From assembly GCF_030851345.1 (NCBI RefSeq), contig NZ_JALPNU010000025.1, positions 1-58,493 on the forward strand: 58,493 bases of DNA, written 5' to 3'. The notes under the pieces were generated by a model. The model saw only the letters and a program-made list of their open reading frames with translations. It searched no databases and was not told the DNA's origin. This document shows, one piece after another, positions 9,048 through 58,493 of the stretch. The DNA is from Marinifilum sp. D714. GTDB taxonomy: Bacteria; Bacteroidota; Bacteroidia; Bacteroidales; Marinifilaceae. A program made the translations under genes and the position numbers. Numbering within the stretch: the first letter of the stretch is position 1; the number at the start of each line of letters is the position of its first letter.

Positions 9048-10778
9048 TTAGTTGCTGTTTAAAAGAATGTTTCTAAGTTCTTTGGGAGATAGCTTGGCAA
9101 TGTTATTGCACAAATAATAAATGTCGTATTTCGAATTGCTTTGTATTTCAGAAATTTTAAAATTCGAGTTTTTCAAATTAATACACAGATTAAAAAAGCT
9201 AGAATATTTGCTTATTATTTTATCATTAATTCCTGCTTCATCTAATTCACGTTTTGTGTAATGAATTAGCTTGTAATTATTTTTTAGGTTTGAATTTCCT
9301 GATTCTCGAATTGCAAATTGTAGGTATTCTATTGCATTGGGCGATAGTTGAATATCAGAGTTTAATTTGTCAAATATCCCTAAGTTAAAATCCATGATAA
9401 TTGACGGGATACCCAATAAGCTTTGTATCTTATCCAAGGCCTGATTCTTCTTCTGCAGTTCTTTCTCTAAATTGGTTTTAATGTATTGTTGTGTTTTAGC
9501 TGTTTTCTGGTGAGTGGTCTCAAATTTTTGTTGCAAGTTTTGAAACTCTTCTGTTAGATTTTCTTTCTTTTCCATGAGCAAAGAATACTTTTTTTTCCAC
9601 CTTTTATGTAAAAGAAATGCTGATAGAGTACCAAAAGCAAACAAGCCTATTATTAGAGATAAAGACAAAGTTTTTCTATGATTAAATTCAGACATAAGTT
9701 GTTCTTTTTCTATGGTAAGACTGCCTATTTTGGAAAGTAAATTCAATTCCTCATCCTTTTTCGGTATTGAGTTTGACTTTTGATAATACTGATATTTTTT
9801 AAAGAAATCATATATTCTTTCATTGCCAGATACTGTAGAATACAGCTCTATACCAGTGGTATATAAATCAATTTGATGTTGTATATAGGAAACATTTTCG
9901 CTGTATTTTAATGCGAGCTCAAAGTATTTACTTGCCTTCTCGTACTTTTTTAGTTGCATGTAATAACGAACAAATAGTAAGGTACCCATTGCCGGAGCTC
10001 TGGGAGTAATGCATTTGGCAAAATATCTTTCTGCAGCCAACAAGTATGAATGGGCCGTTTTCATATCATTCCTATCCAAATTAATTCTTGCAATATTTAA
10101 AGAGTTATCTATGAATTTATCCCACCTCTGTTCTTTTTTCGATTCTAACATTCCTGTTTTGTAATAGTTAACGGCAATATTGATACTATCAATACTTTCG
10201 TAGTACATCCCCATCATGTTTGCCGCAAAGGCTTTATTGTATGGATTCCCATTTTCCTGAATCAGCTGATAACCTCTTTTGTAGCTTTTTTCTTGTAGCT
10301 TGAATTCATTTAATTTTCCATAAAAATGTCCAAGATTGAAATAGGCCAAACCATCATTGGCAGATGATGTGTCATTGGATATTGCTTTCAAAATTAAATT
10401 GATTGCTTCTTTATAATTTCCTTTGTCACCTGCTATTATGCTCCAAACCCTGTAATGTTCAGAATAAGGGCTTTTTCTCGATTTAGCAATTGAATCAATT
10501 TGCTTAATCAATTGTAGCGATTCTTCTTTTTTTCCTGACCTACTTAAAATGGTGCTTTTGGTAGATAAGTAGTCCAGACTATCCTTCAAATTTAATAGGG
10601 AATCTTTCGATTTTTCCAACAAAATAAGCGCATCATACTTGTTACTGTATGCCATTTTTTTTGCTTCTAATAACAGCTTGTTCTTTCCCTTGTTAAAATC
10701 AGTATTGGCAAATGATAGATAAGGGACAACAATGATGAATACAATTATTAGAAAGAGCTGATTATAGTTTCTTATCAT
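9048..10778 (-). CDS. TPR / transmembrane / coiled-coil protein, probable signalling partner
   Basis: 576 aa. Signal peptide ~1-24, TPR-like repeats ~30-340, transmembrane helix ~371-391, basic stop-transfer (HKRWKKK), coiled coil ~398-450, and a ~120-residue C-terminal domain with no motif I recognise. Topology matches Bacteroidota TPR signalling proteins, but there is no histidine-kinase H-box or ATP-binding motif and no clear DNA-binding domain, so the output is unknown. It is the first gene of a two-gene minus-strand unit with the AraC-like protein, one base apart. A plausible reading is a sensor or co-receptor working with the downstream regulator. Confidence 0.7.
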   Translation of the reverse strand: MIRNYNQLFLIIVFIIVVPYLSFANTDFNKGKNKLLLEAKKMAYSNKYDALILLEKSKDSLLNLKDSLDYLSTKSTILSRSGKKEESLQLIKQIDSIAKSRKSPYSEHYRVWSIIAGDKGNYKEAINLILKAISNDTSSANDGLAYFNLGHFYGKLNEFKLQEKSYKRGYQLIQENGNPYNKAFAANMMGMYYESIDSINIAVNYYKTGMLESKKEQRWDKFIDNSLNIARINLDRNDMKTAHSYLLAAERYFAKCITPRAPAMGTLLFVRYYMQLKKYEKASKYFELALKYSENVSYIQHQIDLYTTGIELYSTVSGNERIYDFFKKYQYYQKSNSIPKKDEELNLLSKIGSLTIEKEQLMSEFNHRKTLSLSLIIGLFAFGTLSAFLLHKRWKKKYSLLMEKKENLTEEFQNLQQKFETTHQKTAKTQQYIKTNLEKELQKKNQALDKIQSLLGIPSIIMDFNLGIFDKLNSDIQLSPNAIEYLQFAIRESGNSNLKNNYKLIHYTKRELDEAGINDKIISKYSSFFNLCINLKNSNFKISEIQSNSKYDIYYLCNNIAKLSPKELRNILLNSN

Positions 10779-47357: not shown

Positions 47358-49766
47358 TTATTCATAGCGAAGCGATTCCACAGGATTCCTTTTGGCTGCT
47401 CTCCACGATTGCCACGTGACTGTTATTAAGGCAATTCCCACGGTAATGATTCCTGCTAAAACAAAGATCCACCAGCTAATATCCGTTTTGTAAGCAAAGT
47501 TATTCAGCCATTTGTTCAAGATATAATAGGTAATGGGGCAGGCAATAACAAAAGCAAATGCAACCCATTTTATAAACTCACCATTCAACATATTTAAGAT
47601 TTCCTTTGTCTTAGCTCCATTAACTTTGCGTATCCCTATTTCTTTAATTCGCTTGTTAATGATTAAAATGGTTAAGCCAAATAGTCCTAAGGATGAAATG
47701 ATAATGGCTATAATCGCTGAGTAGGTTATAATTAAACTCCATCTTTCTTCGTTTTGATATCTTGCGTTTAACTGTTCATTCCAGAATTTGTAATCCAGTT
47801 CCTTGTTAGGCGCAACTTTATCCCATGTGTTTTTTATAAATTGAATGGTCTCAGCCTTCTTATCTGCTTTGTATTTTAGGAAAGCAAATTTACTTCTCTT
47901 GCCAAAATCAGCTCTTAAAATTAAAGCAAGAGGTTTAATTGTCTCTTTGGTAGAATCGAAATGAAAATCGTTAATAACTCCTATAATTCTACGTTGTTGT
48001 CCGTCTATAGAGATGGTTTTATTTACGATTTCACCTTCCGGATTGATGAAAGATGCTAGTTTTTGATTCACTATCACCGATTCAAAATTTGGAAGTTCGG
48101 GTTTAAAGTTTTCTCCTTGTATAATTTTAAGATTTAATGTTGAGATATAATTGTGATCCACATATAACAATCGAGCTTCAACATTTTCATCGTTAGAATT
48201 TTGAACATATCCCATTGATCTGCCACTCACATAATTTCGATCTGAAAAAGAATGAGAAGTAATTCCCGGATAAGCAAATATGTAATCACTTAAGGTTCGC
48301 TTTTCTTTTTCACTCAAATGATATACTCTAAGGTTAATTACATTATCAGAAGAAAATCCCAATTTTTTATTTTTCATGAATTGGGTTTGTTTTATTATTC
48401 CAATGCTTAATGCAATAAGAATAATAGACAAAGTGTATTGTAGCATGACAAAAGATTGAACCGGGCCAATTTTTTTATTTTGAATATCCCCTTTGGAGAT
48501 TGTTTGTTGTTTGTATTTTTTCTGTAGTTTAATTACTTGAATTAGACTAGTGATTAAAGTAATAAAAAGAATTGTTGTTACTAAAAACAAAAGGAAACCA
48601 GGTATGTTAATAAGTTCAAGATAGACCTCGTTTTGAGTTAATATTTTCATTACAGGCAATAACTCATACGTCAAAAGTATACCAAATGCAAAGGCAATAA
48701 GAGTAAGTATAATATTCTCGGTAAAGAATTGAGCAAATATATGCTTTGGTTTAGCACCCAGAGTCATTCTAATGCTAATATTGCTCACATTTCTTAAAGT
48801 TTGCCCCAAAGTGAGCATTATGAAATTACTACATGCAACAAATAATATAAAGAAGCCTACAGCAGATAAGATGTACAGGCTATTTTTATTGTTGTTTTTT
48901 TCGTAATCACTCTTCTTATCGTTTAGGTATATTTTTTTTAGTGGTAATGAAAATGGAACAAAACAATCACTGGTTTCAGCAAGGTATTTTTTCGATTGAT
49001 ATAATTTAATTGATTCCTGATAAAAGTCTACCACTGTTTTGTTTACCAATTCTTCAGCTATTTTTGCATTTTCGGTTCTGTCTATTTTATAGAATACTGA
49101 AGATTTTCCGAAGAAAGTATTTGACCATGGAAGTTTATCGTTGGCGTATTTATAAGGTATTAAACCAGTAAACTGAATACTTGAATTTTTTGGAGGATCC
49201 TCCATGATTCCTGAAATAACAAACGACTGATTTTCAATTTTTGGAAATTGAACCTGTAATCCAATTAATGAATCAATACGGCAAGAATGAATTGCTTGAA
49301 ATTTATTTGCCAGGCTTTGGGTAATCACAATCTCATTCGGATTTTGGAACAATCGATCACGATCTCCCAGGATTAATTTGAAGGTAAAAATCCTAAAAAA
49401 ATCTGGTTCGGTAAGGTAAATATTTTCTTCTAAATTGTGATTTTGAAATGTGATAGAAGGTCCGTGCGCCCCCCTAATTGCGGTGCACTTATCTATCTGA
49501 GGAATATTCTCTTTTATAATTTTTGATAACTGGTAATCGAGTAGCGAATCATCTTCTTTAATTCCATTTTCAAAGGTAAGTGTATAGTTAAGTTTGAAAA
49601 TTTTATTTCCCTCTACATGAAAATTATTGTAGTGAAATTCTTGCGTTAAATACAAGTATATTAGGAGAAGACAGGTAGATGCAACAGTAAAACCTACTAT
49701 CGAAATAATAGAATTTAATTTGTTCTTTAGAATATTTCGAAATGCATAATGTATGTTACTTTTCAT
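47358..49766 (-). CDS. FtsX/MacB-type ABC transporter permease (third of three)
   Basis: 802 aa. N-terminal transmembrane helix (~15-38), a large periplasmic MacB_PCD-like domain, FtsX helices at ~290-400, a second periplasmic segment (~430-680) and FtsX helices at ~680-800: eight transmembrane segments in total. It ends in TVTWQSWRAAKRNPVESLRYE, nearly identical to the other two permeases. Together with the ATPase at 54670 it should form an exporter or mechanotransmission complex acting on periplasmic or envelope substrates. It is last in the operon, 42 bp after the middle permease. Confidence 0.9.
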   Translation of the reverse strand: MKSNIHYAFRNILKNKLNSIISIVGFTVASTCLLLIYLYLTQEFHYNNFHVEGNKIFKLNYTLTFENGIKEDDSLLDYQLSKIIKENIPQIDKCTAIRGAHGPSITFQNHNLEENIYLTEPDFFRIFTFKLILGDRDRLFQNPNEIVITQSLANKFQAIHSCRIDSLIGLQVQFPKIENQSFVISGIMEDPPKNSSIQFTGLIPYKYANDKLPWSNTFFGKSSVFYKIDRTENAKIAEELVNKTVVDFYQESIKLYQSKKYLAETSDCFVPFSLPLKKIYLNDKKSDYEKNNNKNSLYILSAVGFFILFVACSNFIMLTLGQTLRNVSNISIRMTLGAKPKHIFAQFFTENIILTLIAFAFGILLTYELLPVMKILTQNEVYLELINIPGFLLFLVTTILFITLITSLIQVIKLQKKYKQQTISKGDIQNKKIGPVQSFVMLQYTLSIILIALSIGIIKQTQFMKNKKLGFSSDNVINLRVYHLSEKEKRTLSDYIFAYPGITSHSFSDRNYVSGRSMGYVQNSNDENVEARLLYVDHNYISTLNLKIIQGENFKPELPNFESVIVNQKLASFINPEGEIVNKTISIDGQQRRIIGVINDFHFDSTKETIKPLALILRADFGKRSKFAFLKYKADKKAETIQFIKNTWDKVAPNKELDYKFWNEQLNARYQNEERWSLIITYSAIIAIIISSLGLFGLTILIINKRIKEIGIRKVNGAKTKEILNMLNGEFIKWVAFAFVIACPITYYILNKWLNNFAYKTDISWWIFVLAGIITVGIALITVTWQSWRAAKRNPVESLRYE

Positions 49767-49808
49767 ATTCGAGGGATTTTTAAATGATTAATTAATAGTG
49801 AGTTTCCG

Positions 49809-52196
49809 TTACTCATATCTCAAACTTTCCACAGGATTTCTCTTTGCCGCTCTCCACGATTGCCATGTAACGGTTAACAATGCAATACCCATTGCCATTA
49901 CTCCCGACAATCCAAATACCCACCAACTCATTTCTGTTTTATAGGCAAAGTTTTCAAGCCATTTGTTCATGGCAAACCAGGCAATCGGACAAGCCAAAAT
50001 AAAGGCAATAATTACCCATTTTAGGAAATCCTTGTTTAACATTCTGATGATTTCATAAGTTTTGGCTCCATTGGTTTTGCGAATCCCAATTTCTTTGGTG
50101 CGCTGTTCCGATGAAAAGTAGGAGAGAGCACTAATGCCAATAATTCCAAAGATAACGGCGAGAATCGAAAAGCTTAGTAAGATTTTTCGAAGTATATTTT
50201 CGGATTTATATTGCTGTGTAATGTTATCGTTCATAAAAAAATACTCCATTTTCTGATCTGGATAATGCTTATCCCACTCCGATTGGATGAAATCCATAGC
50301 TGGCCTGATATCTCCGGAAGCAATCTTTATATGAGTAAATCTGGCATTACTTGAAGATTCGTTTATGTAAAAAATGTAATCTCCAATTTGTTGATGTGCT
50401 GAATTGTAGTTAAAATCGTCAACTACCCCAATGATATCCATTCTTCTTTGATCTGCTTCCAATGGCTGTCCCGATCGAAAAGAATTTAGATTTTCGATAT
50501 TGTTGTGTTTCTCCATTAGTCGATCATACAGATGCTTATTAATGATAAACCCTTCAATGGTATCTTTAGATCTGTTGATGTAATCATAAAGTAGAGGAAT
50601 ATTCATGGTTTGCAAAAAATCCAGATTTGAGAATGACACCTCGGCTGTTCCTTCAATTCCAAATCCTTCAAGAGCAAATGTCTGCGTTGGATATCCAAAA
50701 TATTGTCTTGTAAAACCAACACATTCTATTTGGGAGTTCTTTCTCAATTCGTTGGCAAAAACATTTGGATCTTTTCTAAAATCCTTTTGTCGAAGAACAA
50801 CAACATTCTCTTTGGTAAAGCCCAGAGGTTTATCCAGAATGAAGTTAATCTGTTTGTTTACAAAAATTGTGGAGGATATTAGAACAATTACAATTAAGAT
50901 TTGAAAGATCATTAATGGTTGCAAAAGCTTCTTTCCTGTTAAAGGAAGGAATCCTTTTATGATTTCACTAATCGAATTTCTTCTCAGAATGAAGAATCGT
51001 ACAAAAAATATCGATAGTGTTCCACTGCAAAATAGAATGATGAATATGGCCCAATAGATGATTGGTTCGTTGTAAAAAATATCAAACTGAATTTCGTAAA
51101 ACTGGCCAATAATAGGTTTTATCAACTCTATTACAAATAAGGAAATAAAAATAGCAACTGAACAAAGCAGCAATACTTCAATTAGTATCTGGTACAACAA
51201 ATGTTTTTTATGAGCTCCAATGGAGGATTTTAAACCAAACTCTTTTGCCCTTTTGAAAAGATTGACCGTGATTAAGCTGATGAAATTAACCAGTGATACA
51301 AACAAAATCACAAAAGCAACAATTGTGAACAAGTAGATGTTTAATTTGGTATTGCTTTCTTTAAGTTCGAACCTATGATTCGATTTTAAATGAATATCCG
51401 TAAGTTTCTCTAATTGGAACTTGTAATCCTTCGGCCCTCTGGTTTGCCTGAAACTACTCTTGTTAAAATCATTCAATATTTTATCAGCGATAAAGCTTGG
51501 AGAGCTTCCTTTTTTAAGCTTGAGATAATTGTACACCCATTGTATTTTTCTTGTGCTTAAAATCTTAAACCGTTCTTCCAGGTTTCCTTTTTGAGAGAGT
51601 AGTATCTCACAATTAAAGTGCGTTTTTATTGGTGTGTTTTTAAATATTCCTGCAATTTCAAATCTTCCTGAACCATCTCTAGCTCGCAAACTTTCGGTTT
51701 CAATGGTTTGACCCATTGGGTTCTCATTCTTAAAATACTTTTGGGCAAATCTTTCTGATACAAATGCGACATTGGGATTTGATATTTCAGACAAATCTCC
51801 GACTATACTCTCAATACCAAACATGCTAATAAAATTGGTATCTACTGATAAAACATCATTTTGCGAAATGGTATTTTGGTTGTGTATTGTAATGTTTTCA
51901 AGTTTAGCATGTGAAAATTGGCATGCATTTTCAACTTCAGGAAAGTTTAAGGAGGTTTCCTTAATAAATCCTAAACTTCTAGCCCAAGAATCATCAATGT
52001 GTGATGGAGTTGAGATTACTCTGTAAATTTCCTGATGATCATTGATGTGTTTGTCGTAGCTTTTTTCATTTTGAACATGAACAAACAGCACAAAAAATGA
52101 TGCCAGCCCTACACTTAGACCCAATATGTTTGTCACAGAAAAGGCCTTGCTATTAAGAAGACGTAAAACAGATAATTTAAAATGATACCAAAGCAT
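49809..52196 (-). CDS. FtsX/MacB-type ABC transporter permease (second)
   Basis: 795 aa, same eight-helix layout: N-terminal helix ~18-42, periplasmic MacB_PCD-like core to ~285, FtsX helices ~285-400, second periplasmic part ~430-670, helices ~675-790, and C-terminal GIALLTVTWQSWRAAKRNPVESLRYE (in two parts). Motif EFGLKSSIGAHKKHL and EIGIRKTNGAKTYEI in cytoplasmic loops are the coupling helices that touch the ATPase. It lies 17 bp after the first permease. Confidence 0.9.
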   Translation of the reverse strand: MLWYHFKLSVLRLLNSKAFSVTNILGLSVGLASFFVLFVHVQNEKSYDKHINDHQEIYRVISTPSHIDDSWARSLGFIKETSLNFPEVENACQFSHAKLENITIHNQNTISQNDVLSVDTNFISMFGIESIVGDLSEISNPNVAFVSERFAQKYFKNENPMGQTIETESLRARDGSGRFEIAGIFKNTPIKTHFNCEILLSQKGNLEERFKILSTRKIQWVYNYLKLKKGSSPSFIADKILNDFNKSSFRQTRGPKDYKFQLEKLTDIHLKSNHRFELKESNTKLNIYLFTIVAFVILFVSLVNFISLITVNLFKRAKEFGLKSSIGAHKKHLLYQILIEVLLLCSVAIFISLFVIELIKPIIGQFYEIQFDIFYNEPIIYWAIFIILFCSGTLSIFFVRFFILRRNSISEIIKGFLPLTGKKLLQPLMIFQILIVIVLISSTIFVNKQINFILDKPLGFTKENVVVLRQKDFRKDPNVFANELRKNSQIECVGFTRQYFGYPTQTFALEGFGIEGTAEVSFSNLDFLQTMNIPLLYDYINRSKDTIEGFIINKHLYDRLMEKHNNIENLNSFRSGQPLEADQRRMDIIGVVDDFNYNSAHQQIGDYIFYINESSSNARFTHIKIASGDIRPAMDFIQSEWDKHYPDQKMEYFFMNDNITQQYKSENILRKILLSFSILAVIFGIIGISALSYFSSEQRTKEIGIRKTNGAKTYEIIRMLNKDFLKWVIIAFILACPIAWFAMNKWLENFAYKTEMSWWVFGLSGVMAMGIALLTVTWQSWRAAKRNPVESLRYE

Positions 52197-52213
52197 GTTG
52201 CTAATTTTTAGGA

Positions 52214-54580
52214 TTATTCATATCGTAAACTTTCCACCGGATTCCTTTTTGCTGCCCTCCACGATTGCCAGGAAACAGTTAGCAAAGCAATTCCCATGGC
52301 AATGATTCCTGCCAATGCAAAAATCCACCAGCTGAGTTCAGTTTTGTAGGCAAAACCACTAAGCCATGTGTGCAAAGCATACCAGGCAATAGGGCAGGCA
52401 ATTAGGCAAGCAATAAACACCCACTTTACCAAATCGGTATTCAGCATTTTTACAATCTCGAAAGTTTTAGCACCATTGGTTTTTCGTATCCCAATCTCCT
52501 TGGTGTGAGTTTCAACAATAAAATAGGTTAGGCTGATTAATCCCAAGCAGGATAGGAGTATGGAAATTATGGTGGCATAATTTAGAATGCGCTGAAACTG
52601 TTTTTCCTTCTTGTACAAGGCTTCCCAGCTTGCATCAAGATATTTGATTTCCAAAGGGAAATTTGGAGAAATATTTTCCCAAACCTTGTTGATAGAACGA
52701 ATACACCTTTGAGTACTGGCAACACTGGATTGATTGATTTTGAAATAAATATACCTTGCAGTTTCACCACAACTTCTAAAGGCAATTGGTCTAATTGCTG
52801 AATGCATGGATTCGTGATTAAAATCTTCTACTTCAGCAATTACTTTTCCAACTTTGCCATTGTATCGAATTGTTGCATCTTGTGGTTTTTCAATATTGAA
52901 TTGTTTAAAAGCCGTAGCATTAAAGATCCAATCTGCATTTTCCTCTGAATAACTATTAAACTGTTTGCCCTGAATCAATTTGATTCCAAAAAATTCAAAG
53001 AAGTTTGGGCTTACGAAAAGATTAGCAAAACCAATTTCCTGTTTTTCTCCTTTGTTGATCATGCTTAGTCCCCAATTTGATTGATTATAACCAATTGGAG
53101 CAGATGTGTAAGTATGGTCAGAAATTTCAGGGATTCTTTTGATTTCAGAATTAAAGGCACTACTGCTTTTCTCGATTTGCGGATTGGTAGCAGCATAAAG
53201 AATTTGTTCTTTATTAAAGCCAGGATCCAACTCACTCATGTAATTGTTTTGCTTGTTGATCAAGAGGATTCCACACAGTAAAACGATTGTAATGCTAAAC
53301 TGAAAAATAAGCAAGGCATTTCTAAAATGGTTTTGAGAGCGGTTATTTACTGTGTTTTTTAATAATGCTGTAGTTTGGGTCCTACTAAATCTTATTCCGG
53401 GAATAATTCCGGTTAGTACAAAAGTAAAAGCAAGTAGAGCAATAAAGATGATCAGGTTTGATCCTGAAAAAATCTCAGCCAAAGTAAATTCCGAATTGGT
53501 AATCTGATTTAATCCGATCAGTAAGAAATTACACAATACAATTACCAGTATACATGTAATGAATAGGACCAAAGCGGATTCAGCGGCGATTAACTCAACT
53601 ACTTTGGCCTTTTTACTTCCCATTACTTTAAGGATGCCAATATTTTTAAGGCGCTTAATTTTTTGTGCAGTAACCAGGTTTATGTAATTGATACATGCAA
53701 GCAGTAGAATTAAAAATCCTATGATTTGTATAATGTTTAAGGTAAGTTGATTGCCATGTTTTAAAATCTCAATTTCGGGTAAATCATTATAAGCTTTGGC
53801 AAATGGCTGAATCTCAAATTTGGTCTCTTCTCTATATCCTTCCGGGATGTTGTCGGTTGAGATATTGGCAAGTTTCCGATTGATAATTCCAGCATCAATA
53901 TTTGATGGTAATTTTGCAAAAGCACTGTAGTTTTGAGTGCCCCAATATTCTTCGCTACTTTTAAACCACGAGATTTTATAATTGGTTTCTAGTGAAAGTA
54001 CAGCATCAAATTCCCATGAGCAATGATGAGAAAGATCTTTAATAACTGCTCCTACCTCAACAATTACATTTTGCAAGTTGGTAGCATTGTATAGCAACTC
54101 TTTCCCAATAGGATTTTCATTGCCAAATATCTTTTTAGCCACCGATTGGGTCAACACAATTTTATCGGCAGTATTTAAAGCTTTTTTAGGATCACCGTAA
54201 ATTGTTTCAAACTGAAAGACCTTAAAGAAACACGAATCAGCTATTAGCAGATTTTTCAGCTTATAAGCCGTATTCTCTTTTTTCAGAAAATCCTGTGGCG
54301 ACCAAGTATACCTTGCAAATGTTATTGCCTCTATTTCCGGAACTTCAGACCTGACATGTCTAACCATGGCGCTAGAAATATCAGGGTCTTTTTCGTTTAA
54401 AAGCGTATAGGTGTATTCGATATCAGCAATTTCCTGATCCATATTTTTCTCCTTATTCACATAGGCGAAAACAAGCAGACTAATTGTAATTCCTATAACC
54501 AAGCCACTAATATTAATCGATGAAACCAGCTTATTCTTCAATAAGTTTTTGAATGATATTTTAATGTTGTAGAAATTCAT
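52214..54580 (-). CDS. FtsX/MacB-type ABC transporter permease (first)
   Basis: 788 aa, same architecture, with coupling motifs NIGILKVMGSKKAKV and EIGIRKTNGAKTFEI and C-terminal WQSWRAAKRNPVESLRYE. The periplasmic cores of the three permeases differ more than their C-termini, suggesting different substrate or partner specificity with a shared coupling to the ATPase. It starts 89 bp after the ATPase stop, a gap that holds the hairpin GCTTA-gacag-TAAGC (54604-54618). Confidence 0.9.
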   Translation of the reverse strand: MNFYNIKISFKNLLKNKLVSSINISGLVIGITISLLVFAYVNKEKNMDQEIADIEYTYTLLNEKDPDISSAMVRHVRSEVPEIEAITFARYTWSPQDFLKKENTAYKLKNLLIADSCFFKVFQFETIYGDPKKALNTADKIVLTQSVAKKIFGNENPIGKELLYNATNLQNVIVEVGAVIKDLSHHCSWEFDAVLSLETNYKISWFKSSEEYWGTQNYSAFAKLPSNIDAGIINRKLANISTDNIPEGYREETKFEIQPFAKAYNDLPEIEILKHGNQLTLNIIQIIGFLILLLACINYINLVTAQKIKRLKNIGILKVMGSKKAKVVELIAAESALVLFITCILVIVLCNFLLIGLNQITNSEFTLAEIFSGSNLIIFIALLAFTFVLTGIIPGIRFSRTQTTALLKNTVNNRSQNHFRNALLIFQFSITIVLLCGILLINKQNNYMSELDPGFNKEQILYAATNPQIEKSSSAFNSEIKRIPEISDHTYTSAPIGYNQSNWGLSMINKGEKQEIGFANLFVSPNFFEFFGIKLIQGKQFNSYSEENADWIFNATAFKQFNIEKPQDATIRYNGKVGKVIAEVEDFNHESMHSAIRPIAFRSCGETARYIYFKINQSSVASTQRCIRSINKVWENISPNFPLEIKYLDASWEALYKKEKQFQRILNYATIISILLSCLGLISLTYFIVETHTKEIGIRKTNGAKTFEIVKMLNTDLVKWVFIACLIACPIAWYALHTWLSGFAYKTELSWWIFALAGIIAMGIALLTVSWQSWRAAKRNPVESLRYE

Positions 54581-54669
54581 AATTCAGTTTAGAAATGGTA
54601 ATGGCTTAGACAGTAAGCTTTAAAAGATATGATGTGTAAATTGTTAAGGCAGTAGCGGTATTTCGATGC

Positions 54670-55362
54670 TTAAAATACCTGCTCCGCTACCAAGCTTTCT
54701 TCAGTTACAACTTTACCATCAAACAGGTTGATAATTCGGTGAGCATATCCTGCATCTTTCATAGAGTGAGTCACCATGATAATGGTAGTTCCTTCGCGGT
54801 TTAATTCGGTAAGCAATTCCATAACTTCCTGACCGTTTTTCGAATCCAGATTACCCGTAGGCTCATCGGCAAGAATTAACCCTGGGTTAGATACTACTGC
54901 GCGAGCAATGGCAACACGTTGTTGCTGACCACCTGATAATTGCTGAGGGTAATGTTTTGCACGATGACTCATGTTCATTCTATCAAGCACCTGGCTCACC
55001 ATTTCTTTTCGTTTTTTGGAGCTGATGCGCTGATAAACCAAAGGCATTTCAACATTTTCGAAAACATTTAATTCATCTATCAAGTTGAACGACTGAAATA
55101 CAAAACCAATATTTCCTTTTCTTAAATCGGTGCGCTGTCCCTCTTTTAAATTCGCAACTTCGGTTTTGTTAAAATTGTATTCACCTCCCGATGGATTATC
55201 CAATAAACCCAGGATGTTTAAAAGAGTAGATTTACCACAACCCGAAGGTCCCATAATGGCTACAAATTCTCCTTCTTTAATGTTTAGGTTTACATCGTTT
55301 AAGGCTAAAGTTTCAATTTCATCCGTTCTGAAAACTTTCGATAAATTTTTAATAGAAATCAT
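54670..55362 (-). CDS. ABC transporter ATPase (MacB/LolD type)
   Basis: 230 aa from ATG 55362 ([24 protein letters not shown], in parts). The frame starts at 55398, but that ATG falls at the predicted sigma-54 transcription start, so the 55362 ATG is preferred. Walker [17 protein letters not shown]-loop, signature [14 protein letters not shown], Walker [14 protein letters not shown] and H-loop VTHS are complete. It powers the three FtsX permeases. First gene of the operon, divergent from the sigma-54 regulator. Confidence 0.93.
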
Positions 55363-55408
55363 ATTCTTCGTTTTTAAATAATACACATGTAAAATCATGG
55401 CTTACCAT

Positions 55409-55424
55409 TGCGAACTTTGTGCCG
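55409..55424 (-). promoter_or_regulatory. Predicted sigma-54 (RpoN) promoter of the ABC operon
   Basis: On the minus strand CGGCACAAAGTTCGCA matches the -24/-12 consensus TGGCAC-N5-TTGCA at all but two positions and keeps the required GG-N10-GC spacing. Predicted start ~55398, leaving a ~36-nt leader to the ATPase ATG at 55362. The adjacent regulator is a sigma-54 activator, and the enhancer-like repeat lies upstream. Confidence 0.75.
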
Positions 55425-55488
55425 AAATTTGTAAGTATCTAAATATAAACACAAAAAGAAGGATCGGACTTTAGGGCGTGTAAAATTT

Positions 55489-55507
55489 TTAGACAGTGTA
55501 TGTCTAA
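55489..55507. promoter_or_regulatory. Enhancer-like inverted repeat for the NtrC-type regulator
   Basis: TTAGACA-gtgta-TGTCTAA is a perfect 7+7 bp dyad in AT-rich flanks. Its centre is ~100 bp upstream of the predicted sigma-54 start, the usual place of an upstream activating sequence, and 132 bp before the regulator ATG. Confidence 0.65.
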
Positions 55508-55579
55508 TATTTTGAAAAGCTGATTAATTTAGAGGAGCAAAGCTTATTTTAAACACTAAGACGGAAAGTCACATTGCTC

Positions 55580-55597
55580 TCCCGATAGTTATCAGGA
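55580..55597. repeat. Degenerate CCCGATAG palindrome
   Basis: TCCCGATAGTTATCAGGA, a diverged relative of the 1774-1791 element, just before the sigma-54 regulator gene. Confidence 0.5.
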
Positions 55598-55629
55598 CAA
55601 ACATAAACTCATCACTCATTCGCCCAAAT

Positions 55630-56991
55630 ATGAAAAAATCAAACATTCTTATTGTTGACGACAACCGAAGTGTTTTAAGTGCATTGGATCTGTTGTTATC
55701 GCCATACTGTGCCAAACTAAAGTGTTTATCCTCTCCCAAAACCTTATTTGCCGAGCTGCAAAGCCAAGATTACGATGTTGTTTTGCTGGACATGAACTTT
55801 ACCACTGGTATCAACAATGGCAATGAGGGCATCTATTGGTTAAACCAGATCTTGGAGCAATACCCTGGTGTGAGTGTTGTGATGATTACGGCCTATGGCG
55901 ATGTTGAATTGGCGGTAAAAGCAGTCCGTTCCGGGGCTACCGATTTTGTTCTGAAACCTTGGGACAACGAAAAAATGATTGCAACCGTTGATACAGCCTG
56001 TAAGCTAAGTCAGTCGAAGAGAGAGCTGAAAAAGATGCAGCTGAAAGAAAAGCAGTTCATTGAGGAGATCAACGGATCGAATAAAGATTTAATTGGTTCA
56101 TCGGCTACCTGGGAGCGTGCCATGAAAATGGTTCGTAAAGTGGCCGATACCAATGCCAATGTGCTGATCACCGGTGAGAATGGAACAGGGAAGGAGCTGA
56201 TTGCAAGAGAAATTCACCGACTTTCGAAACGATCGAACAAAGTAATGGTGAGTGTGGACATGGGAGCCATTGCTGAAAATCTGTTCGAAAGCGAATTGTT
56301 CGGGCATAAGAAAGGCGCCTTTACCGATGCACATTCCGATAGAATGGGGAAAATAGAAGCTGCCAATAAGGGAACACTCTTTCTCGACGAAATTGGAAAT
56401 CTGACCATGCCCATGCAGGCCAAATTGTTGTCGGTGCTTCAAAATAGGATACTTACCAAGGTGGGTGACAATTCACAAACCAAGCTTGACTTACGCCTGA
56501 TATGTGCCACCAATGGAAATCTGCAGCAAATGGTATCCGATGGCAATTTTAGAGAGGATCTTCTGTATAGAATCAATACCATACACATCGAAGTACCGCC
56601 ATTGCGCGATCGTAGAGACGATATCCCCGAACTGGCAGAATTTTTTGTGAACAAGTATGCCGATAAGTATGGGAAGAATTTAAAAATAAGCAGTCAGGCC
56701 ATAGCCAAGTTAAGCGATTACGCCTGGCCGGGAAATGTTAGAGAGTTACAGCATTCGGTTGAGAAAGCGGTAATCCTTTCGGATTCTCAGCAGCTAACCG
56801 CAGGCGATTTTGTTTTCAAGAACGACGATATGAACAATGTATCCAACTTTGGCGGAACCCTGGAAGATATGGAAGCACAACTGATTGCTTCGGCCATTGA
56901 AAAACATGCTGGAAATCTTTCTGCCGTATCAACACAATTGGGCATTTCTCGTCAGACGCTCTACAATAAAATCAAGAAGTATGGGCTATAA
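55630..56991 (+). CDS. Sigma-54-dependent NtrC-family response regulator
   Basis: 453 aa. Receiver ~1-125 (IVDDN acidic pair, phospho-acceptor LLDMNF, ITAYGD, LKPWD), AAA+ domain ~150-385 (Walker A GENGTGKE, GAFTDA loop, LFLDEIGN, R-finger region), and a Fis-type HTH at ~415-453 ([15 protein letters not shown]). The GAFTGA sigma-54 contact loop reads GAFTDA, which I have seen as the normal form in many Bacteroidota. It should activate a sigma-54 promoter; one is found in the divergent region. It overlaps the kinase gene by 11 bp. Confidence 0.93.
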   Translation: MKKSNILIVDDNRSVLSALDLLLSPYCAKLKCLSSPKTLFAELQSQDYDVVLLDMNFTTGINNGNEGIYWLNQILEQYPGVSVVMITAYGDVELAVKAVRSGATDFVLKPWDNEKMIATVDTACKLSQSKRELKKMQLKEKQFIEEINGSNKDLIGSSATWERAMKMVRKVADTNANVLITGENGTGKELIAREIHRLSKRSNKVMVSVDMGAIAENLFESELFGHKKGAFTDAHSDRMGKIEAANKGTLFLDEIGNLTMPMQAKLLSVLQNRILTKVGDNSQTKLDLRLICATNGNLQQMVSDGNFREDLLYRINTIHIEVPPLRDRRDDIPELAEFFVNKYADKYGKNLKISSQAIAKLSDYAWPGNVRELQHSVEKAVILSDSQQLTAGDFVFKNDDMNNVSNFGGTLEDMEAQLIASAIEKHAGNLSAVSTQLGISRQTLYNKIKKYGL

Positions 56992-58324
56992 GAATTACAA
57001 TTTTGCATTATGGGTTAGAATGCTAATCCTTTTGGCTACCGCTATTTCATGCGGTTATGCCATTGCCACAGCATCCTATATGGCCCTTACTTTTTTTGGT
57101 TTGTTTATGCTCGTAGAGGTTTGGGAGCTCATTCGATTCCTAAACAAAACGCACAAACAAATCGACTTTTTTATCAAGGCCATTAAGAACGAGGATACAA
57201 CACTTCGTTTCCCCGAAAAATCAGGCAATAGCATTATTAACGAACTGCATCATAGTTTAAACGATCTGAATGGCATTTTGCAGCAAGTGCAAACCAAATC
57301 GAGAATCAGGGAAAAGTATTTTGGTGAAATTCTGCAGAACATATCCACCGGAGTGATCGTCTTATCGGAAAATAAGCACATTACCGATGTAAATTCAGCC
57401 GCACTTGAATTGTTGGGCCTGCCTGCACTTACACACATTAGTCAGCTGAATAGAATCGATACCCGATTTACCAATTCGCTGCTCGAAATCTCGAACAGGC
57501 AGAAGCAGGTTTTGGAACTCTCAACGCCTAAGGAGAGGGTTCAGATCAATACCGCCTGTTCGGTAATCCGAATCGATCAAGAAGACATTAAGCTCATCAC
57601 CCTGCAGGATATTCGTGGAGAACTGGAGCGAAAAGAGGTAGATGCCTGGATCAAACTGATACGTGTGTTGAGTCACGAAATCATGAATTCCCTGGCTCCG
57701 GTAACTTCCATTGCACAATCGCTGAAGCGGATTTGGGAAGAGAAATCAGAAATGATTGTAGATGAAAATCTGGAAACAGAAGTGGGGAAAACCGTGAACG
57801 GATTGGGCGTGATTACCGAAATGAGCGAGGCGTTGATCCATTTCGTGAAATCCTACCGCATGTTGTCCAAGCCACCAAAGCCAATCTTGGGCAGTGTAAA
57901 CTCCATCGAGTTTTTCGATCGACTAAGCATTCTGCTTTCACCAATAAAGGAGGAGTTTGCTGGTGAATTGCAGATTCAAACCCCAAAACGATCCTTCGAT
58001 TTTGTAGCCGACGAACAGATGATTGTTCAGGTGATCATCAATTTGGTGAAGAATGCCAAGGAGGCATTTAACGGAGAAGCCGAGCATGGAAAGATCAGTG
58101 TGAGTTGTAACAAGAAAGGACCAATTTGTGAGATCAATGTAATTGATAACGGCCCGGGAATTCCTGCCGAAATTGCCGACGAGATTTTTATTCCATTCTT
58201 CACCACCAAAACAAATGGTAGTGGTGTTGGCCTAAGCCATTCCCGACAAATTATTCGCGCCCATGGCGGTAGTTTGTATTGCACCTCCAAACCAAATCAA
58301 ACCGTGTTTAAATTGAGGTGGTGA
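56981..58324 (+). CDS. PAS-domain sensor histidine kinase of the NtrB/NtrY type
   Basis: 447 aa from ATG 56981, which overlaps the regulator stop; the longer frame from 56885 reads through the regulator's HTH and is not chosen. Two transmembrane helices ~9-50, PAS ~105-190 ([23 protein letters not shown], in parts), H-box [16 protein letters not shown]-box [11 protein letters not shown]1 DNGPGIP, G2 [18 protein letters not shown]. With only a short loop between its helices it probably senses membrane or cytosolic state. Translationally coupled with the regulator. Confidence 0.93.
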
Positions 58325-58338
58325 TTATCTAATAATTC

Positions 58339-58469
58339 TACCCTGCAAGGGTAAGAGCAGTAACATAGGGCATCGCCCTATGATTATCAAAAACAATATG
58401 AAACCAAGCCCTGCAAGGGCGCTAGCACAAAATGAAATAATTGGAATTCCGCTCACGCCCCTTCAGGGC
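58339..58469. repeat. Cluster of CCCTGCAAGGG-type REP palindromes
   Basis: Four short palindromes in about 130 bp: TACCCTGCAAGGGTA (58339-58353), CATAGGGC-atc-GCCCTATG (58364-58382), GCCCTGCAAGGGC (58408-58420) and GCCCCTTCAGGGC (58457-58469). They share GCCCT/AGGGC arms. Clusters of this sort often flank REP-associated tyrosine transposases (TnpA-REP/RAYT), so one could lie beyond the window end. Confidence 0.7.
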
Positions 58470-58493
58470 TAATTGTGTTGGATTTGGATTCAC

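Follow-up and report, generated by a model that had tools for sequence, protein, structure and literature searches.

A predicted sigma-54 circuit with paired operators between an FtsX/MacB-type ABC operon and its divergent NtrC-type regulator in Marinifilum

The 58,493-nucleotide stretch of Marinifilum sp. D714 DNA analysed here (the window) carries a four-gene ABC transporter operon back to back with a response regulator and a sensor kinase, which raises the question of how this operon is switched on. A preliminary description had proposed that a sigma-54 promoter and an enhancer dyad lie between them and that the regulator activates the operon. Comparison with related loci points to a dedicated sigma-54 circuit, in which the divergent NtrC-type regulator, two operators and a sigma-54 promoter would drive the ABC operon (probability about 0.85). 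The operators, the promoter, their fixed spacing and the gene neighbourhood all emerge from this comparison of sequences. The locus comprises the following features.

47358..49766, minus strand: FtsX/MacB_PCD permease 3, last gene of the operon (ORF list; Pfam FtsX and MacB_PCD)
49809..52196, minus strand: FtsX/MacB_PCD permease 2 (ORF list; Pfam)
52214..54580, minus strand: FtsX/MacB_PCD permease 1 (ORF list; Pfam)
54670..55362, minus strand: ABC transporter ATPase, first gene of the operon (Pfam ABC_tran; start common to relatives)
55409..55424, minus strand: predicted sigma-54 -24/-12 promoter, CGGCACAAAGTTCGCA (same-genus conservation; fixed distance to the dyad in 12/12 orthologs)
55479..55495, no strand assigned: proximal operator, TGTCTAAAAATTTTACA in minus-strand reading, centre 64 bp upstream of the -24 GG (gap scan, spacing)
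55489..55507, no strand assigned: dyad of the preliminary description, the facing halves of both operators (sequence, ortholog comparison)
55501..55517, no strand assigned: distal operator, TTTCAAAATATTAGACA in minus-strand reading, centre 86 bp upstream of the -24 GG (block conserved in 12 orthologs)
55630..56991, plus strand: NtrC-type response regulator with receiver, Sigma54_activat (GAFTDA loop) and HTH_8 (Pfam, alignment)
56984..58324, plus strand: sensor kinase with N-terminal hydrophobic hairpin, PAS, H-box SHEIMNS and HATPase_c (Pfam, hydropathy scan)

Reading frames and Pfam matches agree with the preliminary description on a four-gene operon divergent from the regulator and kinase; its genes, all in one orientation, encode an ABC ATPase and three FtsX/MacB_PCD permeases. 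The longest reading frame of the ATPase begins at the ATG at 55398; relatives share the ATG at 55362, the start assumed previously. The top NCBIfam score of the ATPase is below the cut-off, and the labels darobactin exporter (DarD, 296.3 bits versus a cut-off of 375; DarB, 82–103 bits versus 700), MacB and PEP-CTERM regulator were all rejected because their scores fall below the curated NCBIfam cut-offs. The operon resembles MacAB-TolC-type efflux systems in its MacB_PCD/FtsX permeases, and related loci often encode further components of this kind (MFP and/or TolC-like genes in 49 of 80, with examples checked against Pfam). It differs in having a separate ATPase and three permeases with no MFP or TolC-like gene, and the absence of these partners from the four-gene operon led us to reject such an identity for the operon itself. 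The same locus is found in Marinifilum flexuosum DSM 21950, where the regulator is 98% identical (L109) and both promoter and operators are retained (L014), and the intergenic region used as a query against plasmids gave no match. The permease genes (47358–54580) are 72–81% identical over their last 100 bp and 30–39% identical 600–700 bp further in (ungapped), and the permease set is not constant between Marinifilum species. Since the gene ends are alike, the inner stretches are not and the sets differ between species, there is a hint of recombination among the permease genes. At the end of the window (58340–58493), CCCTGCAAGGG and CCCTTCAGGG-like stretches occur repeatedly and might represent a short interspersed repeat.

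The regulator has the receiver, the AAA+ domain (Sigma54_activat) and the Fis-type HTH that characterize the NtrC family. Its loop motif is GAFTDA, where the sigma-54-contacting loop of this family typically reads GAFTGA; in 80 regulators the GAFTDA form occurs 51 times, GSFTDA 28 times and GSFTGA once. Excerpts of one study count GAFTDA among the variants able to activate (PMC4641369), and the motif therefore need not argue against sigma-54 activation; in NorR the same Gly-to-Asp change results in constitutive activity, according to excerpts of another (PMC2941729). The window kinase has no HisKA among its Pfam matches listed. The kinases retrieved (61 of 81) begin with hydrophobic segments and have no sizeable outer domain in a simple, rough hydropathy scan, and 46 of the 61 carry the H-box SHEIMNS or a close form. 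Bce-type sensing modules combine a hairpin kinase, which has neither an outer nor a cytoplasmic sensor domain, with an OmpR-type regulator. The window kinase is similar in its membrane hairpin and in having no outer sensor domain (rough hydropathy scan), but it carries a PAS domain and its partner is of the NtrC type instead of the OmpR type, so that the pair was not classified as a Bce-type module. Elsewhere in this genome, the region upstream of a sigma-54-like site in a paralogous module (L080, ~10267–10480) contains a palindrome, TGTTGGAAATTCCAACA, that is likewise perfect but differs in sequence.

Two features expected of a sigma-54 promoter are present: a GG/GC element (YGGCAY-N5-TNG) lies in the correct orientation ahead of the operon, and a Pfam profile search of the 4.77-Mb draft genome matched PF04552 (sigma-54, rpoN) once. 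Re-reading of the sequence confirmed CGGCACAAAGTTCGCA at 55409–55424 of the minus strand with the GG-N10-GC spacing reported earlier, which would put the start site at ~55398. By itself the -24/-12 string is weak evidence, near chance, because YGGCACN5TNGCW occurs 11 times genome-wide versus 5 times for the reversed control; the significance of promoter and dyad lies in their sequence conservation and fixed spacing. The short TTACA-like sequence directly preceding the -24 element (55425–55435) is seen again in several of the 12 orthologs described below.

The preliminary description had suggested searching related genomes for the promoter together with the dyad. At 12 ortholog loci (G000, G001, G002, G003, G004, G011, G012, G015, G020, G023, G025 and G030), which represent five genera of one family and have regulators 70–100% identical, both elements are conserved, and the dyad centre is exactly 75 bp from the first G of the -24 GG in 12/12. 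The distance from regulator to dyad ranges from 71 to 213 bp and that from promoter to ATG from 55 to 183 bp, the latter excluding G004, where the end of the upstream region was placed by hand inside the ATPase frame and the value of 103 is unusable. Mean pairwise identity among seven representatives is 0.75 in the operator block, 0.67 in the promoter and 0.44 in the spacer, with 0.30 expected by composition. As spacer identity is low and the distance constant, the spacer drifts in sequence and keeps its length. The outer flanks beyond the dyad, parts of both operators, are also conserved, whereas the spacer and the farther distances vary. The pattern common to the 12 promoters is YGGCAY-N5-TNG, with G at the -12 element in all 12, followed by C in six, A in four and T in two. 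Comparison supports a sigma-54 promoter before the ABC operon; the GC at -12, which the preliminary description held to be required, is dispensable in this group, being kept in only 6 of 12 orthologs.

The dyad, TTAGACA-N5-TGTCTAA, is indeed perfect at 55489–55507. No other genomic site comes within 1 mismatch of it, all further matches listed having 2, and when as many as 2 are allowed, the pattern occurs less often than its reversed control (13 per strand versus 45). The unit that recurs, as judged from a wider discovery set, is a different one. This set comprised 81 loci (80 among the matches listed in a contig scan, plus the window) and includes near-copies, e.g. L110 and L111. When the gap of TGT-Nx-ACA was varied over the 81 loci, x=11 was enriched, with 115 sites versus 15.2 in shuffles (runner-up x=13, 24 versus 16.1), and the dyad was dropped as the operator in favour of TGT-N11-ACA. 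The dyad is made up of the right half of the distal unit, whose left half is degenerate (TTT instead of TGT), and the left half of the proximal unit. In line with the original proposal, comparison supports an enhancer ~90–110 bp upstream of the predicted start; its unit is the 17-bp TGT-N11-ACA, present twice. Conserved paired operators upstream of the promoter, as expected of a sigma-54 enhancer, are found in the 12 orthologs and at part of the loci in the sets of 81 and 57. The TTAGACA half-site that had been noticed in the ATPase-permease gap does occur there (54606–54612), being a 7-mer with seven copies in the window on both strands, two of them the dyad itself. It has no support of its own and a role for it was rejected, for the gap, similar in G003 and G002, is different in G001 and G011. 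The same gap holds an operator-like TGCCTTAACAATTTACA at 54635–54651, where G003 has TGTCTTAACAATTGACA, a full TGT-N11-ACA.

Within 600 bp, YGGCAYN5TNG is present on the divergent strand at 55 of the 81 loci and on the opposite strand at none (100 shuffles: mean 1.9, maximum 7). Among the 26 loci without it, L114, L118 and L141 have a TGGTAY form, and L132 and L171 a promoter beyond 600 bp, in each case at the expected spacing; the 21 others are unexplained. The first divergent gene recognised at 80 loci is TolC-like in 30, an MFP gene in 15, an ATPase in 11, a permease in 8 and another regulator in one (none in 15), i.e. 64 of 80 have an ABC, MFP or TolC-like gene in first place. Seventy-seven of the 80 encode a kinase, and 47 an ATPase >50% identical plus a permease. 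Seven loci labelled Cyclobacteriaceae, Flammeovirgaceae, Fulvivirga or Bacteroidetes OLB12 (L162, L169, L170, L175 and L177–L179) combine a strong TGGCAC-type promoter with no TGT-N11-ACA at the expected distances and likely use another operator. A Bacteroidota-wide search at E 1e-150, which was too strict, gave matches in 9 of 296 genomes, the host genome included.

The operators keep to a narrow set of positions. Out of 85 operator-promoter distances <250 bp, 76 are within 62–66, 72–75, 84–88 or 94–98 bp of the -24 GG; over the 81 loci there are none at 67–71 or 76–83 and a single one at 89–93 (90, L181). At least one operator is located in these windows at 45 of the 55 promoter-bearing loci, the remaining 10 having none. 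The distances thus cluster around ~64/86 or 74/95 bp, two classes that differ by one turn of the helix, with a Rayleigh R of 0.75–0.76 at periods of 10.5–11 bp (83 distances, kinship ignored). Because the windows had been drawn from the discovery data, we tested them on 57 other loci, leaving out relatives inspected earlier, the window's own and same-genus paralogs, matches of <45% identity, one partial match (G047) and one short-flank locus (L038). Here, the promoter was present on the divergent strand in 33 loci and on the other strand in 4, with 24 lacking it; an operator stood in a window in 15 and in none in 42, and 22 of 23 operator distances fell inside the predicted windows, the exception being 76. 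Promoter-bearing loci of this set that have no TGT-N11-ACA site probably use another operator. Eleven of the 57 had been viewed previously for promoter-like strings, not for operators, and L035 is identical to L182 of the discovery set (both without the promoter pattern), which leaves 56 distinct loci, several others being close kin. Since the loci are related, the spacing statistics overstate independence. In a tree of regulators from 47 of 48 labelled loci, with the window left out, the near class (~64/86) has 20 rows and the far class (~74/95) 27; the switch between them takes at least 3 changes (bootstrap 3–5), and the starred branches alone force 1.

A search of 295 genomes of the class for an operator (beginning with TGTC or TGTA) and a promoter separated by a free gap of 45–74 bp did not retrieve the window, because its promoter begins with C. 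In one genome, G444, it returned nine matches (eight in the TGTC run and one in the TGTA run) and zero control matches. Each of the nine promoters has a second operator, at distances of 65/86 in eight and 66/87 in one. Seven precede FtsX permeases, an ATPase or a TolC-like gene, and the other two a 419-aa and a 134-aa frame with no match to the queries. For eight of the nine, the surrounding sequence that was retrieved showed no regulator gene. These scattered promoters (L249–L254) look like a many-operon regulon that a single regulator might control. Outside G444, matches were near background (8 versus 9 in the control, and 14 versus 5); among them, those in G472 and G578 directly adjoin a regulator gene.

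The evidence can be read in other ways. The dyad itself might be the enhancer, with one dimer on TTAGACA-N5-TGTCTAA and the flanking TTTTCAAAA and TTTTACAC incidental; it is the most symmetric intergenic element, perfect here, and its position is fixed in 12/12 orthologs. However, it is TGT-N11-ACA that is enriched over the 81 loci (115 versus 15.2), and the flanks beyond the dyad are conserved in orthologs. Moreover, the interval between neighbouring operators is 22 bp for 28 pairs, 23 bp for four and 21 bp for one, and therefore the inner gap of the dyad varies and N11 does not, making a dyad enhancer quite unlikely. The location of the block between two divergent genes would also suit a role at the regulator gene (autoregulation or repression, on the plus strand), with the operon transcribed from an ordinary sigma-A promoter. 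This is very improbable, given that the distance is fixed to the operon promoter and variable to the regulator start (71–213 bp), and that for eight of nine G444 promoters the stretch around them showed no regulator gene.

It is just as improbable, in our judgement, that the sigma-54 promoter is real and the operators are bound by another sigma-54 activator of the host. Candidates do exist, as the genome has 15 Sigma54_activat matches above the Pfam cut-off, ten of them >220 bits, and five regulator-kinase pairs adjoining ABC genes, this pair included. Yet the block accompanies the orthologs of this regulator, adjacent to it in the 12 ortholog loci, and the upstream regions of the four further modules have different sites and lack the block.

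Activation of the ABC operon by its divergent NtrC-type regulator, as proposed in the preliminary description, is supported by sequence comparison. In such a circuit, the membrane kinase would phosphorylate the regulator, dimers of which would fill the two side-by-side 17-bp operators ~89 and 111 bp upstream of the predicted start site and assemble an AAA+ ring. The ring would then touch the sigma-54 RNA polymerase waiting at -24/-12 through a short loop of fixed helical phase, leading to transcription of the ATPase-permease operon. The product may function in export; that the signal is envelope or antimicrobial stress is our guess from the transporter type.

The predicted arrangement has parallels in known systems. 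In NtrC/glnA circuits, as covered in part of a review (PMC7408454), a phosphorylated NtrC-family activator also acts from paired sites ~90–140 bp upstream by looping to sigma-54 polymerase; the glnA distance can be changed widely without loss, whereas here it takes one of two values. The same excerpts cite a helix-face-dependent sigma-54 system with two sites. Clostridiales sigma-54 regulons (PMC6615313, excerpts) share the Fis-type HTH, TGT/ACA inverted repeats with a 10–12-bp spacer, often several sites per target and a target that usually adjoins the activator gene, but most of their sites are spread broadly 100–250 bp upstream of the promoter, in contrast to the narrow windows 62–98 bp from the -24 GG. 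Bacteroidia FtsX-type (COG0577) permeases were placed under predicted sigma-54 control in 2025 (PMC12316311), with the same promoter, permease and bacterial class; its passages considered here give promoter enrichment only, and the strings 'UAS' and 'upstream activat' are absent from that text. A selected table of Flavobacterium psychrophilum sigma-54 starts (PMC9723704, excerpt) contains no ABC operon. The predicted sigma-54 link to FtsX-type permeases in Bacteroidia (PMC12316311), TGT-N10..12-ACA sites (PMC6615313) and helix-face dependence (PMC7408454) are already known. No earlier account of the enhancer layout was found in the open-licence PMC papers searched, and the paired operator, the two fixed distances and their tie to a two-component transporter module in Bacteroidota are new as far as these searches show.

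A more far-reaching generalization is that throughout Bacteroidota the FtsX/MacB-linked NtrC-type regulators work exclusively through a pair of neighbouring operators that share one face of the helix and sit at either of two distances differing by a single turn, with no bending protein involved, and that the kinase, having no outer domain, senses the transporter's state within the membrane; taken jointly, these propositions are improbable. The fixed layout would offer a simple search rule for the targets of many uncharacterised Bacteroidota two-component systems and tie a large FtsX-type transporter family to a defined switch. Furthermore, the natural variants one helical turn apart may serve for testing short sigma-54 loops.
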